Virus record (IMG/VR): IMGVR_UViG_3300006929_000025
Span: 1 to 48,967 of that record
Direction: 5' to 3' (one strand)
From: a virus
Length of the DNA: 48,967 nt
Below, in pieces: positions 1,118 to 43,109 of this stretch; position 1 is the stretch's first letter; the number at the start of each line of letters is the position of its first letter. The notes beneath the pieces were generated by a model. The model ran no database searches. It was not told the DNA's origin and worked only from the letters and a program-made list of their open reading frames with translations. Both the position numbers and the translations under genes were made by a program.

Positions 1118-3446
1118 AAATTATAGATATGTTGTCAACTTTTTTAACTGTGATAACATTTTCACCCCACTCTCTAACTAAAGGATTATGTGTTATGAGT
1201 AAAATGTTATCAAAGTATTCTCTTAACTTCATAAAAAACTCCCCAACCATTTCTAAATTATCATTACTTACTTTACCAAATACCTCATCAAAAACAGTAA
1301 CGTTTGGTTTGGGTAGAGAAGATATCTTCCCTAATACCGCTCTTAAAGCTAATGATGAAATAGTTTTTTCGTATCCTGAAGCAGAAGAAAGTGGTCTAGC
1401 TAATTCACTATCTTTGTCTACCATCCAAAATTCTACTTCATGTTTTTCATTAATTCTTATATCAATGTAAAAATGATTTTCTACCGATAATAAATTATTA
1501 ACTTCCAAATTTAAAGCGGGCACAAAACTTCTAAGTATAACTTTAGGTATTCCATTTTTACCAAAAGCCATTAAATAAGTTTTAAATATTTTTTCAATTT
1601 TTTCTTCTTGTTGGATTTTACTTATTTTATCTTCATTTTCGGTTACGACTCTTTTATTGTGTTCCAATATTATCTGATGATTATTTTTAGTATCAATTGT
1701 TTTATCTTTAAGAATTGTAAAGTTATCTATACTACTTTGTAATTTTAAACTCTTTGACTCTACTTCTTGGTTGTATTCAATTTTCTTTTTATTTAATTCA
1801 TAAGAGTCTATAGAATTTTTATTTTTTTCTAACATTACTTTTATAGAATCTGATTCTAGAGTTTTCTTTTCTTTGATTAGTTTATTTCTATCATAAATTT
1901 CTAATTGTAACTTTAATTTATTAAGTTTTTCTAACTCATTTACAATATTAGTTTCCTTAACAATTTTTTTAGATAACCCATCTTTTGTTTCTACCAACTC
2001 TTTCTTTTTATTTTTAATATCCTCCGTATGGTCTACATCATCTAAGCTTTTTCCACATGTTGGACAAAATTGTGAGGTTTCTAATTGTTTAATAGTTTTT
2101 GTAAAATTTTTAACTTCTGTCTCTAGAATAGTGACTTCTTTACTTATCACATTTTTTTCATTTTCTTTTAGTTGGTATTCTGTGGGATTAAAGTATGTTT
2201 CAGGTTCGACGACCTCTATTTCCTCAATCTCCTTAGTTTTTTCTTCTAATTTTTTTGTATAATCTTCTAAATTACTTTTTAATGATTTTATATCTATTTT
2301 ACTAATACCTTCATCTATATCATTATATTTAGACTCTAGTAAATTATCTTTTTCATTTCTAAAATCTTTTATATCTTTTTCATATTCTTTAATTTCTTTA
2401 TCTGAAACTTTGATTGATTCTTCTTTTTCTTTTATCAGTTCCACTGATTCTTCTATTTCAGTTTTTAAGGTGTTTATATCGTATACATTAGAGATAAGTT
2501 TTTTAGACCAGGTAGAGTACATTTCTTTACAAAATTTTTCTTTTTCTCTCAATAATTCTAACCCAATAAATCTATAAAAAATATTACCTCTTTCTGTGGG
2601 TTTTGCGTCAATAAGTGAGTCTAGGTTGGACCCGGTGGTTAAAATCGTCAGTAAAAAGTCATCTACATTTCCTATAGCTTCTTTAATAAATTTTTCTGTT
2701 TCCCTTCTTTGTTCTCCAGTAAAATTTTGTAAACTCCCATCTTTCATTTTTTTAAAGAACTCTAAATGTGTTCTAACAGACCACTCTCCTTTAGCTGTTT
2801 TTTTTCTTACTACTTTTCTTAAAATAATATAATCTTCACCATCAATTTCTACATCACCTTCTACAATTACCTCATTTTTATTACGAAACTTATTAAATAT
2901 TTCTTCAGCTTTATTAGTTTTAGTGGTGTTGTTAAAAAATAAAAATAGGAGTAAGTCTACAGCTAAAACTGTTTTCCCTCCAAAATTTGGTGGGTTTGAG
3001 TCTATTACTGTTATACCGTCTAATCGTTTAAAGTCTAATACGTTATTATCACCAAAAGAAAGAAAATTAGAAAATTTAATTTTATTTACTACTAACTTTC
3101 TATATCTTTTTTGTAGTATACCTGTTTTGTCTAGACTGGCGTTTACCTTATCATCAAGTCGAGATATGTCACCCCATTCTACGTTAATGTTTTCTTGTTT
3201 AAGAAATTCTTTTAAAAGATTTTTTTGATAGTTTTTGTCCATCACATCTTCACCTAAAGATAATTCTAGTTTTTTACCTTTAACTGATTGTGCTTTACTT
3301 ATGACAGTGACGTTTTTTGAATTATATTTTTTACTAAAATAAGATTTAACTCTTCTTATTCTTTCTTTGGTAAAATTTTCTGGTATGTCTTCCCACACTA
3401 CCCTAACAAAAGGGTTTTTTAACTTTTTTACTCTTTTTAGTTCCAT
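1116..3446 (-). CDS. 46: gp46/SbcC/Rad50-like recombination nuclease ATPase subunit
   Basis: This is an SMC-family ATPase that should pair with the gp47-like nuclease at 4206-5012 to process DNA ends in recombination-dependent replication. In order it shows a P-loop region with NFGGKT (Lys about residue 158), a long coiled coil, a zinc-hook CPTCGK near residue 463, a second coiled coil, a signature-like SASGYEKT and a Walker B-type VTVFDEVFG near the C-terminus. At 776 residues it is longer than T4 gp46 (560), partly because about 115 residues precede the ATPase fold. The frame is also open to a TTG at 3482, but the ATG at 3446 avoids a 23-base overlap with the upstream gene and is preferred. 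The first glycine of the P-loop is replaced (NPPNFGGKT), which is unusual. Confidence 0.92.
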   Translation of the reverse strand: MELKRVKKLKNPFVRVVWEDIPENFTKERIRRVKSYFSKKYNSKNVTVISKAQSVKGKKLELSLGEDVMDKNYQKNLLKEFLKQENINVEWGDISRLDDKVNASLDKTGILQKRYRKLVVNKIKFSNFLSFGDNNVLDFKRLDGITVIDSNPPNFGGKTVLAVDLLLFLFFNNTTKTNKAEEIFNKFRNKNEVIVEGDVEIDGEDYIILRKVVRKKTAKGEWSVRTHLEFFKKMKDGSLQNFTGEQRRETEKFIKEAIGNVDDFLLTILTTGSNLDSLIDAKPTERGNIFYRFIGLELLREKEKFCKEMYSTWSKKLISNVYDINTLKTEIEESVELIKEKEESIKVSDKEIKEYEKDIKDFRNEKDNLLESKYNDIDEGISKIDIKSLKSNLEDYTKKLEEKTKEIEEIEVVEPETYFNPTEYQLKENEKNVISKEVTILETEVKNFTKTIKQLETSQFCPTCGKSLDDVDHTEDIKNKKKELVETKDGLSKKIVKETNIVNELEKLNKLKLQLEIYDRNKLIKEKKTLESDSIKVMLEKNKNSIDSYELNKKKIEYNQEVESKSLKLQSSIDNFTILKDKTIDTKNNHQIILEHNKRVVTENEDKISKIQQEEKIEKIFKTYLMAFGKNGIPKVILRSFVPALNLEVNNLLSVENHFYIDIRINEKHEVEFWMVDKDSELARPLSSASGYEKTISSLALRAVLGKISSLPKPNVTVFDEVFGKVSNDNLEMVGEFFMKLREYFDNILLITHNPLVREWGENVITVKKVDNISII

Positions 3447-3459
3447 ACCGTTTTCATTG

Positions 3460-3765
3460 TTATTTAGGTCTATTTTCCTCAAACCATTCTACCATCGCAT
3501 TAAGAGCCCACACTGAACCACTAGCTAACATACCGTCAAAAAATATGTTAGTATAAGGTATAATTACCATAGGTAGTGTTGGGGAATAAAAAGCTAAGGA
3601 GAAAAAGAATCCGACCCAGGTAGACGTACACATCATACATGAGATTAGGTCTCCAAAAAATGTAGAGTGTTTTTTTATCCAATCTCTTGGTGTATCGAAT
3701 ATTCCTCCAAATACAAGTATTTGAGACATTCCGTAAGCTGCTAAAATCCAAATTAATATTTCCAT
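3460..3765 (-). CDS. Small membrane protein with CxxC, DUF1360-like
   Basis: The protein has 101 residues. An N-terminal hydrophobic segment (ILIWILAAYGMSQILVFGG, about residues 3-21) is followed by a hydrophilic DTPRDWIKK stretch, a CMMC pair near residues 43-46, and one or two more hydrophobic segments (about residues 50-75). This layout resembles short DUF1360-type membrane proteins seen in phages and bacteria; the assignment is from pattern memory and is not certain. It lies between the two recombination-nuclease subunit genes with only a one-base gap to the upstream coiled-coil gene, so it is co-transcribed with them. A function at the inner membrane during infection is possible; nothing in the sequence defines it. 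Confidence 0.7.
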   Translation of the reverse strand: MEILIWILAAYGMSQILVFGGIFDTPRDWIKKHSTFFGDLISCMMCTSTWVGFFFSLAFYSPTLPMVIIPYTNIFFDGMLASGSVWALNAMVEWFEENRPK

Positions 3766-3766
3766 G

Positions 3767-4213
3767 TTATTCTATATATGTATCGTTTATGTTTGAGGTC
3801 TTAAGGTATTTTGCTCTCCTATTGACTGTTACTTTTTTGAAGTGTTCAAGCACATCTTCCATTTGTTCCATTCTTTCTTGTTGTTCTTTTATTAAATTAT
3901 CCTTATTTTGTAATTCTTTTTTGAGTTTTTCTAGTTCTTCAATTAACTGAGTATCTTTAACTTCTTTGGTTACAATTTTTTCTACTATAACCTCTTTTTC
4001 TACTGGTATTTCTTTTATAACTTCTTTTACTATTTCTTTTTCTACGGGAACTTCTTGTATCTGGGATTTAGGTAAAAATGGTGCTACACCATATTTGTCC
4101 AAAGTAAGTCCATCCTTAGTACATTTAATTATAAAATCTACCGTATCTTCTATTTCATTGAGTTTACAGTAGTCTTCAATATTTTTATTTAAATTTTTAG
4201 GTAAATTAACCAT
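3767..4213 (-). CDS. Coiled-coil protein encoded between gp46- and gp47-like genes
   Basis: The protein has 148 residues. Residues 1-45 form a compact helical segment starting NLPKNLNKNIEDYCKLN. Next is a low-complexity Val/Glu/Lys stretch with repeated PVEKE units (about residues 55-87), then a coiled coil (about residues 92-128) and a basic tail. No enzyme motif is seen. The last codons of the gp47-like gene overlap its start by 8 bases, and its stop is one base from the next gene. The position suggests an accessory to the recombination complex or a scaffold. The repeated VEKE(I/V)(V/I) pattern probably makes an extended helix or rod. No family is recognised with confidence. Confidence 0.72.
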   Translation of the reverse strand: MVNLPKNLNKNIEDYCKLNEIEDTVDFIIKCTKDGLTLDKYGVAPFLPKSQIQEVPVEKEIVKEVIKEIPVEKEVIVEKIVTKEVKDTQLIEELEKLKKELQNKDNLIKEQQERMEQMEDVLEHFKKVTVNRRAKYLKTSNINDTYIE

Positions 4214-5031: not shown

Positions 5032-6825
5032 ATGAAGATTATTGTTACAAAACATCAGTTAAAAACTTTAAAGGAACAAACTCCGGATAATGAAGAAATG
5101 ATATCAACTGAACCCTTAGTTGTCAATTATAAAAATAGAGCTTCGGGTAATTGGAGGTATTTCTTTAATGATGTTTCTGGAGTAACCCCAGAAGAAATAA
5201 AAAATTATAAAGAAATTATTTTAAGAGCTGATGGTGAAGACGATATTCCTGTTAATACTAGTTTATTATCTTTTAACTTTTGGCCTAATTTAAGTATTTC
5301 TAAAAAAGAAAAAATTAGTGAACCTTCGGATGATAGACCGTCATCTAATGTTATAATAAATAATAAATTATTGTACAATAATAATTTTCTCTATACTCAA
5401 GTAGAGTCGAGGAGCCCTTTTCGTCAAACAGTTAAGCAAGCTATTAAAGATGTGTGGAGTAACACAGACAACTGGGGAATGGGCAATGTACCAGAGGGAA
5501 GTAGTAGAAACCCAGGAGTTATTAATTTTGAACTTGCATGTGGAACTGATGACTGGTCTATATTAAACTATTTTGAGGGTAATACACGTGTTTTAAGAGA
5601 ACTTTTAAAGATTTATAAAGACGAGGTAAGTGAAGAGTGGAATAGAGATGATTTTTTACCATGGATTATCGATAATAAAATAAGGTTATTTGGTCCTGGT
5701 GATATAGTTAAAGTTCTTGCAAATGAGAATAGGGAAACCCAATGTATAGGAGAAAGAAGAGAACGGATGGGTGAAGAATGGTTAAGGTCTTGGTATAAAG
5801 ATAATGGTTTAGGTAATGTTAAAATTGAATCTGGGTGTCCTGGTGATACTCTAGATAGAACTTGTGGTCAAGATATGAGAATTTATAGAGAGGATGGTTC
5901 GATGGATTATTATCAAGTTAAACCTTTAAAAAAAGGAGTATATAAAACAGAAAGATTTCCTTATGAAGTAGAGTCTGCGGCTTTACCTAAAGAAGGATAT
6001 CCTATAGATGTTAATTATTTATTTGTAAGTAGTCCTAATTCAAGTAACCCTAAATTTATTGTTTTTAAAAATGAAGGACAAAAACATATGAGAGGTATCT
6101 ATTATGGTAAAATAGGTTTTAATAATCCACCGATTACTTCTCCCACACAATTAAAATCAAATATGAAAGAATCTACATTAAAAATTAAAATTACAGAACA
6201 ACAAGCGGAAGAATTATCTAAAAATACAGCGGAAGAAAGAAGAATAAGAACAATGTTAAAAGATATGGTAGGAAGAGCTCCTTGGTTAGTAGATGAAGGT
6301 TATGAACTGGAGTTCTTTGAACCTACTCAATCTAGTACTGCGATGTTACTTCATCATGATAAAACAAAATACCAATGGAATAGAGAAGTGATGGAAGAAA
6401 TTATAGAACCAGTATTTAGACTGTATGGGTTTGAGGATGATGAAAAAGACTTCGTATATGCTTTATTTATACAAAATATGGCTAATGACCCAAGCCATAC
6501 TTTTACTGAATTAATTATACCTTCACCTTTCCCATTTAAAACAGGAAATTACAGAAATAGTGGTGGTACTAGTAGACAGGGTGAATTAGATGGTTACCAT
6601 AGAGACGATATAGAAAAAGTATTTGGACCACCCGTCTATGATGAACCTAGTCCAGATGGAAAAGTACAAATGGAATGGGTTATAGAGTTTCCTGATGGTA
6701 CTACAGCTACCATATACGATTATAAACAATATGATGTAGCTACCGAAGATATTGATTATTGGAGTATTGGTGGACACAAACCTTTAGCTGCTTACTATGT
6801 TAAAAAAGCGATGGGAATTATTTAA
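5032..6825 (+). CDS. Two-part phage protein: PD-(D/E)XK nuclease-like domain plus conserved phage domain
   Basis: The protein has 597 residues. It starts MKIIVTKHQLKTLKEQ, an amphipathic tag ending in L-K-E that resembles prohead-protease-cleaved capsid-targeting peptides of T4-like phages. Around residues 235-310 are E/D/QxK-spaced residues (GERRERMGEEW, then CGQDMRIY and YYQVKP) that fit a divergent PD-(D/E)XK nuclease core. A second tag-like segment, TLKIKITEQQAEELSKN, begins near residue 382, after an in-frame ATG at 6163. The C-terminal domain ends with VFGPP, EWVIEFPDG, TIYDYK and WSIGGH, a pattern I associate with small conserved phage proteins of unknown function. The whole looks like a fusion of two tagged proteins. 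It is one of only two plus-strand genes here. Delivery in the capsid is a hypothesis. Confidence 0.8.
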   Translation: MKIIVTKHQLKTLKEQTPDNEEMISTEPLVVNYKNRASGNWRYFFNDVSGVTPEEIKNYKEIILRADGEDDIPVNTSLLSFNFWPNLSISKKEKISEPSDDRPSSNVIINNKLLYNNNFLYTQVESRSPFRQTVKQAIKDVWSNTDNWGMGNVPEGSSRNPGVINFELACGTDDWSILNYFEGNTRVLRELLKIYKDEVSEEWNRDDFLPWIIDNKIRLFGPGDIVKVLANENRETQCIGERRERMGEEWLRSWYKDNGLGNVKIESGCPGDTLDRTCGQDMRIYREDGSMDYYQVKPLKKGVYKTERFPYEVESAALPKEGYPIDVNYLFVSSPNSSNPKFIVFKNEGQKHMRGIYYGKIGFNNPPITSPTQLKSNMKESTLKIKITEQQAEELSKNTAEERRIRTMLKDMVGRAPWLVDEGYELEFFEPTQSSTAMLLHHDKTKYQWNREVMEEIIEPVFRLYGFEDDEKDFVYALFIQNMANDPSHTFTELIIPSPFPFKTGNYRNSGGTSRQGELDGYHRDDIEKVFGPPVYDEPSPDGKVQMEWVIEFPDGTTATIYDYKQYDVATEDIDYWSIGGHKPLAAYYVKKAMGII

Positions 6826-6863: not shown

Positions 6864-7628
6864 ATGGAAATTACACGAGAACTAGCAAAATTTAACCATA
6901 TTAAATTTCACGATAAAGAACATAAGTATTATCTTAATGGTAAAAAAATGTCATCAGTAACACAATTAATAGGTAAATTTAAACAATCTTTTGACACCGA
7001 TTACTGGTCTGAAAAAAAAGCTAAAGAAAGAGGTATACTAAAAGAAGACATCCTTAAAGAATGGAAATATAAAGCAGATTTTGCTACTCAAAAAGGTTCT
7101 GCATTTCACGCTTTTGCTGAAAACTATCTTTTTAATAAAGTATTTCCATTTCCTGAGGAGGAGATGACTTCTGTTTTAGGAAGTGTAGAAAATATGTTAG
7201 AATGTAGGGAAGCTCTTAATCATATTATAAAATTATTTAAAAAATTCTATGAGGACTCTTTTGAAAAATTAGTACCTGTAAGAGCAGAACTAGTTGTTGG
7301 TGATGAGGAGTTAGGTTTGTGTGGGATGGTTGACCAGTTATTCTGGAACGAGAAAAGTGGGATGTTAGAAATATGGGACTGGAAAACAAATAAAGAAATT
7401 AAAGAAAGAAATAAGTGGCAACAGTTTAAGGACCCTATAAGTCACTTGGATGTTTGTGAACTAAACACATATTCATTACAACTTTCTACTTACAAATATA
7501 TTATTGAGAAAAATACTAACCTTAAGTTAGGTGAGTCTTACATTGTCTGGTTAAATGAAAAAAATGATAACTATAAAGTATTTAAATGTCATGACTTTCA
7601 AGAAGAGGTTGTTAATATACTAAAGTAG
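6864..7628 (+). CDS. PD-(D/E)XK exonuclease, RecB/Cas4-like
   Basis: The protein has 254 residues with the full RecB-family nuclease set: a helix with GSAFHAFAE (His 82, Glu 86), Glu 142 in AELVVG, GMVDQLF (Asp 157), EIWDWKTN (Asp 172, Lys 174) and the QxxxY motif QLSTY (Gln 206, Tyr 210). The N-terminal SSVTQLI and DTDYWSEKKA segments also occur in phage single-domain nucleases of this family. It likely degrades or resects DNA in recombination, or helps break down host DNA. It follows the 597-aa gene by 38 bases on the plus strand and overlaps the convergent primase gene by 9 bases. No fusion or truncation is seen. Confidence 0.9.
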   Translation: MEITRELAKFNHIKFHDKEHKYYLNGKKMSSVTQLIGKFKQSFDTDYWSEKKAKERGILKEDILKEWKYKADFATQKGSAFHAFAENYLFNKVFPFPEEEMTSVLGSVENMLECREALNHIIKLFKKFYEDSFEKLVPVRAELVVGDEELGLCGMVDQLFWNEKSGMLEIWDWKTNKEIKERNKWQQFKDPISHLDVCELNTYSLQLSTYKYIIEKNTNLKLGESYIVWLNEKNDNYKVFKCHDFQEEVVNILK

Positions 7629-42901: not shown

Positions 42902-42910
42902 ATAAATATT
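42902..42910 (-). promoter_or_regulatory. AATATTTAT box upstream of gp25-like gene
   Basis: The nonamer lies seven bases before the gp25-like ATG at 42894 and overlaps the stop codon of the 66-aa gene. It is the first such box of the 34-kb virion operon in transcription order. The short spacing would imply a very short leader if it were a minus-10 element, so a translation role is also possible. Confidence 0.38.
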
Positions 42911-43109
42911 ACCGCTCTACTTTTGCAAACATCTGTTCCATAATACTTTCTATAGCACCTATAACAGCATACTGGTCATCACCCCATTGAGACTTGTGTT
43001 TAACTATAATTTTTTCTATGCACTCCTTTAAATCGTCAGCCAATAAATCCCATTTATCTGGTTGATAATCCCATTGCTCTCTTAATATTTTTTTAATTAG
43101 TGGTTTCAT
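42909..43109 (-). CDS. Small 66-aa protein with tag-like N-terminus
   Basis: The protein has 66 residues. It starts MKPLIKKILREQW, with a basic amphipathic helix ending in L-R-E, similar in shape to the tag at the start of the 597-aa protein. The rest (WDLLADDLKECIEKII, then YAVIGAIESIMEQMFAKVER) is helical with one Cys. No family is recognised. An AATATTTAT box lies five bases before the ATG. The gene lies just upstream of gp25. A small virion or internal head protein, or a chaperone of baseplate assembly, is possible. The composition and context make it credible as a real gene despite its size. Confidence 0.7.
   Translation of the reverse strand: MKPLIKKILREQWDYQPDKWDLLADDLKECIEKIIVKHKSQWGDDQYAVIGAIESIMEQMFAKVER

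Follow-up and report, generated by a model that had tools for sequence, protein, structure and literature searches.

Why should a single gene of a T4-like phage encode two short segments that resemble the leaders of capsid-packaged proteins, one at the N-terminus of its product and the other in the interior? The gene in question (5032-6825, plus strand) is an open frame of 597 amino acids, here designated P0001, in the window, by which we mean the whole stretch of 48,967 nucleotides that was analysed. P0001 begins with MKIIVTKHQLKTLKEQTPD, and an in-frame ATG at 6163 encodes Met378, followed by KESTLKIKITEQQAEELSKN. The frame, both leader-like segments (tag 1 and tag 2) and this ATG are as described in the first-pass annotation, which had read the gene as a fusion of two formerly separate, capsid-packaged proteins, one of them with a nuclease-like core.

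Genome setting of the two-module gene

The window is a 49-kb fragment of a T4-like phage with genes for a baseplate wedge, a DnaB-type helicase, a primase and SbcC/SbcD-like gp46/gp47. A 73.9-kb record extends it, with 4 mismatches over the 19,543 positions compared (99.98% identity). The neighbours of the two-module gene are replication and repair genes. A flanking phage exonuclease gene (6864-7628, plus strand; phrog_298, E 5.6e-28) was used as a synteny marker, and 80 related loci were kept around it. At this spot the two-module gene is present in the window's clade only and is missing from the broader relatives examined. Between 4206 and 8534 of the window, the exonuclease gene and the two-tag gene are inverted relative to the primase and gp47 genes; in relatives all genes of this locus run in one direction and other genes occupy the spot. 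A homologue in locus L003 is 80% identical to P0001 and keeps both tag segments, and the overall dN/dS of 0.20 between the two indicates that the gene is under purifying selection. The ATG at 6163 was also considered as the internal start of a separate product. Such a product is not supported, since the methionine is not kept in the homologue of locus L068 and a Shine-Dalgarno-like sequence is absent upstream.

The N-module belongs to a PD-(D/E)XK-like family

Narrow scans of viral contigs that started from the closest sequences gave three near relatives only. A four-sequence profile opened the family of the N-module (residues 1-377), for which it found 68 loci. The homologues are mostly proteins of 250-405 aa, and those that are free-standing have their C-termini at about residues 365-377 of P0001, just before tag 2. 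Homologues of the N-half are present in the related contigs G006 and G009; in G006 the protein is free-standing and has a different tag, MKTLIKKILVE/Q (a slash marks the predicted cleavage throughout).

In 36 divergent sequences, down to 20-30% identity, residues E244, D281, Q295 and K297 are invariant and form a PD-(D/E)XK pattern; G162, WSILN at 175-179, F181, G240, G271, D275 and F345 are likewise invariant. An AlphaFold model of the N-module (pLDDT 81.3, pTM 0.67) places E244 on a long helix, 224-257, and both Q295 and K297 on strands. Two domains are distinguished. An N-terminal beta-rich domain at about residues 28-90 (5113-5301, plus strand) shows beta strands in the model and aligns with the corresponding region of the free-standing homologues that carry a type-1 tag. 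The nuclease-like domain spans about residues 117-365 (5380-6126, plus strand) and contains the invariant E244, D275, D281, Q295 and K297. Foldseek matches in the PDB are mostly PD-(D/E)XK enzymes (HinP1I, Hjc, SPARDA, AvaII), each of them weak, with a best E of 0.07. The earlier placement of a PD-(D/E)XK-like core at about residues 200-330 is correct. The N-module shares with HinP1I, Hjc and the SPARDA nuclease the invariant E, D and Q-x-K, a predicted alpha/beta core and consistent Foldseek neighbours. It differs from them in having no significant single match and no Pfam or PHROG family, and in possessing a beta domain of its own at the N-terminus as well as a WSILN[YF]F motif.

Novelty was judged against Pfam, PHROGs, PADLOC, the PDB, annotated phage records and a limited literature search. 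Searches of Pfam, PHROG, PADLOC and the PDB with the N-module sequence returned no accepted family. Annotated phages gave no match to the free-standing N-module homologues or to the N-module of L068, and genome contigs scanned for homologues gave none either. When annotated phages were searched with the whole of P0001, the C-terminal domain was matched and nothing else. A whole-protein model from a shallow alignment had a pLDDT of 56 and was poor outside the C-domain, and a fold search with it was uninformative.

The nuclease module is also found at the C-terminus of 820-889-aa proteins that bear no obvious tag (L192 6997-9498, L206 2150-4819, L224 2057-4687 and L237 2174-4636). Two BFVD entries match the fold with E values of about 1e-9, A0A6J5L953 (501 aa, annotated as a superoxide dismutase) and A0A8D9CCA0 (a 1113-aa marine phage protein); both are probably further fusions of the module.

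Tag 1 and the leaders of unrelated genes

Tag 1 comprises residues 1-15 (5032-5076, plus strand) and reads MKIIVTKHQLKTLKE/QTPD, with a predicted cleavage site L13-K-E15/Q16. In the AlphaFold model it forms a helix at residues 7-15, followed by a low-confidence stretch at 16-21. The earlier identification of a T4-type (I/L)-x-E leader is supported. The (I/L)-x-E/Q pattern is kept in both homologues with the gene, as KLFE/QTPD in L003 and LLEE/QNKP in L068, and (I/L/V)-x-E occurs at residues 8-36 in 32 of the 34 non-redundant free-standing N-module members, against a background of 40% (P 5e-11). Some tagged homologues, such as L229 and L247, are without it at residues 8-36.

The ending of tag 1 is found on unrelated genes of the lineage as well, and many unrelated genes have the same tag. 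In six related contigs the start motifs MKIIITExQ...L..E/Q, MKxLIKKILxE/Q and KxxLTESxL...ISE/Q recur on unrelated bodies, and (I/L)-x-E/Q was observed within residues 7-32 in 34 cases where about 10 were expected. Around the nuclease homologues, 63 of 425 ORFs carry a tag and fall into 37 unrelated body clusters, compared with 5 of 59,069 internal positions. Other tagged genes are present in the window's own phage, among them one for a small protein (42909-43109, minus strand) with the type-2 tag MKPLIKKILRE/QWDYQ, ending in LRE/Q. The tagged set includes cupin and DHH proteins, and one tagged enzyme matches the 'phage tail lysozyme' family. Because some of the tagged genes encode cell-wall enzymes, the tag may not be head-only.

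Several further observations were made on tagged genes. The same N-terminal tag is carried by a lysozyme (L011 4196-4780) and by an M23/tail-lysozyme protein (L180 14488-15807). An unannotated domain with the motif SxxYGxGTxWCTA occurs at L010 17110-18366 (window -17825 to -16566) and L012 about 2227-3993; its carriers are a tagged LRR protein and other proteins, all of the same phage. The proteins at L218 6664-8577, L239 6754-8301, L258 7066-8577 and L260 6921-7826 share a start of ~130 aa, after which come an internal tag and modules that vary; L218 has a second internal tag at the cut-off end of its ORF.

Tag 2 lies at the module junction

Tag 2 covers residues 378-398 (6163-6225, plus strand), and its motif, KIKITEQQAEELS, starts at residue 384. 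Tags were scored with a 13-column matrix built from 21 N-terminal tags of other genes only. Tag 2 scores 19.5 bits. Once four positions at residues 29-30, probably miscalled starts, are set aside, it ranks first among the 238,719 internal positions in the six related contigs. In the same ranking its counterparts in L003 and L068 score 14.9 bits (rank 7) and 13.2 bits (rank 9). In a wider set of 2,621 distinct ORFs, at least 13 bits was reached at 18 of 500,214 internal positions, including tag 2 of P0001, L003 and L068. Tag 1 scores 10.1 bits, a value that 19 internal positions also reach; since this is lower than the score of tag 2, the assignment of tag 1 rests on its position, its E/Q ending and its homologues. 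The (I/L)-x-E that follows tag 2 is not conserved in position, being I387-T-E389/Q in P0001, L-A-E/H in L003 and L-K-E/K in L068.

The C-module, partner swap and recent exchange

The C-module has a helical middle domain (residues 402-500; 6235-6531, plus strand) that is conserved in L003, L068 and partly in L073, with weak similarity to a free-standing L114 ORF. Its C-terminal domain (residues 501-597; 6532-6822, plus strand) was found at 43 loci, mostly as free-standing phage ORFs of ~100 aa; it gave a confident beta-alpha model, with which a fold search found no known fold. This widespread phage domain of ~95 aa (window 6532-6822; L023-L063) has the motifs GTSLxGY, DKxxxEW, YDWK and WHIGG, and the copies scanned matched no Pfam or PHROG family.

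In L068 the C-half, 68% identical over residues 377-597, lies behind an unrelated Mrr-like domain, and the change of partner occurs at tag 2. The order in L068 is tag 1 (LLEE/Q), Mrr-like domain, tag 2 and C-half. The alternative N-module scores 18.0 bits against Mrr_cat (PF04471), below the Pfam cut-off of 21 (E 0.0033), and hhalign gives no more than a hint (E 0.17) that the nuclease cores of L068 and P0001 share an ancestor. Between the window and L003, dS is 1.3-2.0 in gp46, gp47, the primase gene, the RuvC-like gene and the exonuclease gene; it falls to about 1.0 in the N-half and to 0.2-0.5 over residues 402-597. Because the last value is so far below that of the flanking genes, we conclude that the C-half was recently exchanged as a unit.

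The claim that two formerly separate packaged proteins were fused stands in part. The junction is at tag 2 and the N-half is free-standing and tagged in most relatives, so it is not the case that the halves are never separate and lack tags. However, the C-half is not established as a once free-standing packaged protein. Only its last ~95 aa are found alone, in short phage ORFs that are mostly without the tag motif, and a free-standing tagged C-half was looked for and not found.

A second tagged family is found both separate and fused

A tag-marked fusion of separate genes is seen directly in another family, not in that of the C-half. In more distant relatives a module starting with DLEYW or DLKYW adjoins the exonuclease. 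It is a separate gene in L114 (4392-5872), with the type-1 tag KLQE/DLEYWSVSD, and in L125 (4871-5497), with the type-2 tag ILKE/DLEYWRVSN. An in-frame fusion of the module to the gene that precedes it, with KIEE/DLKYW as the internal tag, is seen in L118 (4663-5997), L122 (4669-5949) and L124. An extra module lies between the two in L119-L121, and in L119 (4051-5949) this has its own type-2-like tag, NESIKNILRE/E. Whichever tag precedes, body homology starts directly after the predicted cleavage Glu; in L115-L117 the first part of the body is missing and the join lies further in. Because the module is both a separate tagged gene and part of a fusion, these copies show directly how genes were fused and a relic internal tag was left behind. 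The family has an EGWHRTMSIL motif, gave no Pfam match in the copies scanned and is perhaps ParB-like.

These chains raise the tentative idea, which we think rather doubtful at present, of tagged cargo polyproteins, in which modules with their own tags are joined in frame, enter the head as one chain and are perhaps cut at the internal tags by the prohead protease. Candidates are the nuclease-tag-C-module chain of P0001 and the two- and three-module chains of L122 and L119.

DISCUSSION

The internal proteins of T4 are a classic but small set. Directed into the head by a leader and cut by gp21 after L/I-x-E, they are injected together with the DNA (PMC9026906, PMC12373910). The system described here resembles T4 Ip1-Ip3 and Alt in that a short N-terminal leader with an (L/I)-x-E motif is common to otherwise unrelated proteins, in the S77 protease (here in relatives) and in the accessory, variable nature of the cargo. 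It differs in its several interchangeable leader types, its PD-(D/E)XK cargo, its fusions with internal tags and its far larger number of tagged families, and it is known from sequence alone. Related records encode the S77 prohead protease (PF03420) in 6 of 14 and in 15 of 16 cases, counts that are not independent tests because many of the records are fragments; the protease was looked for in the genome fragments of this phage and not found. In the relative G007 the protease itself starts with ...ILVE/Q, and the major head protein has SLINE/QTTAS at residue 60.

We consider it likely that P0001 is a PD-(D/E)XK nuclease that, like a T4 internal protein, is packaged in the head, processed and delivered with the genome. 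Tag 1 would be a capsid-targeting leader: it would carry the protein into the prohead core and then be cut off after E15 by the S77 protease. The mature protein would then leave the head with the DNA, and its nuclease domain would act on DNA early in infection, most likely that of the host or a competitor, with the phage's own DNA presumably protected. By fusion at Met378, a once separate nuclease gene would have gained a second module, which retained its own tag. When staphylococcal nuclease was packaged in T4 via a leader, the packaged DNA was digested only upon addition of calcium (PMC3012670); a nuclease could therefore reside in the head if metal is limiting.

The tags might target the capsid while the core, instead of attacking the host as an active nuclease, serves to bind DNA or to counter host defence. 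In T4, the injected proteins Ip1-Ip3 inhibit Type IV restriction enzymes (PMC12373910), and the partner swap in L068 would fit an arms race. Nevertheless we regard this as unlikely, since the E, D and Q-x-K residues are invariant in 36 sequences that diverge down to 20-30% identity, as expected of a working active site, and the swapped partner in L068 also looks nuclease-like, at its below-cut-off Mrr_cat score. That the tag addresses another phage assembly (tail, replication compartment or scaffold), with an incidental (I/L)-x-E, is quite unlikely. Classic head cargo does not include the tagged lysozyme, the M23 peptidase with a tail-lysozyme domain or the cupin and DHH proteins, and L229 and L247 are tagged without the site at residues 8-36; but the site statistics (34 versus about 10, and 32/34 versus the 40% background), body homology that begins just past the predicted cleavage Glu behind three different tags, and the same site type on the protease and major head protein of G007 all argue against this reading. 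A cytoplasmic replication or recombination enzyme with a tag-like N-terminus by chance would suit the neighbouring gp46/gp47, primase and exonuclease genes and the Hjc resolvases among the fold matches, but is very improbable given the tag statistics, the lack of the gene at this locus in the broader relatives examined and the occurrence of free-standing homologues in other neighbourhoods rich in tagged genes.

The packaged nuclease proposed here also recalls the polyvalent proteins, which are multi-domain, are predicted to be injected with phage DNA and include DNases (Iyer et al. 2017, PMC5512222). It differs from them in that its modules are marked by capsid tags and (I/L)-x-E sites and also occur singly as tagged genes; a zincin peptidase was not seen by Pfam.

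In uncultured T4-like phages, sequence alone reveals a tag code that marks dozens of unrelated proteins, and because it can be read in this way, head cargo could be listed from genomes. The predicted N-termini are Q16 in P0001 and that at E/DLEYW in the second family. Candidate injected cargo now includes a nuclease family that Pfam and PHROG do not list, and the tag-marked fusions show how such cargo gets swapped. If the polyprotein reading were true, these phages would have a polyprotein strategy for head cargo.
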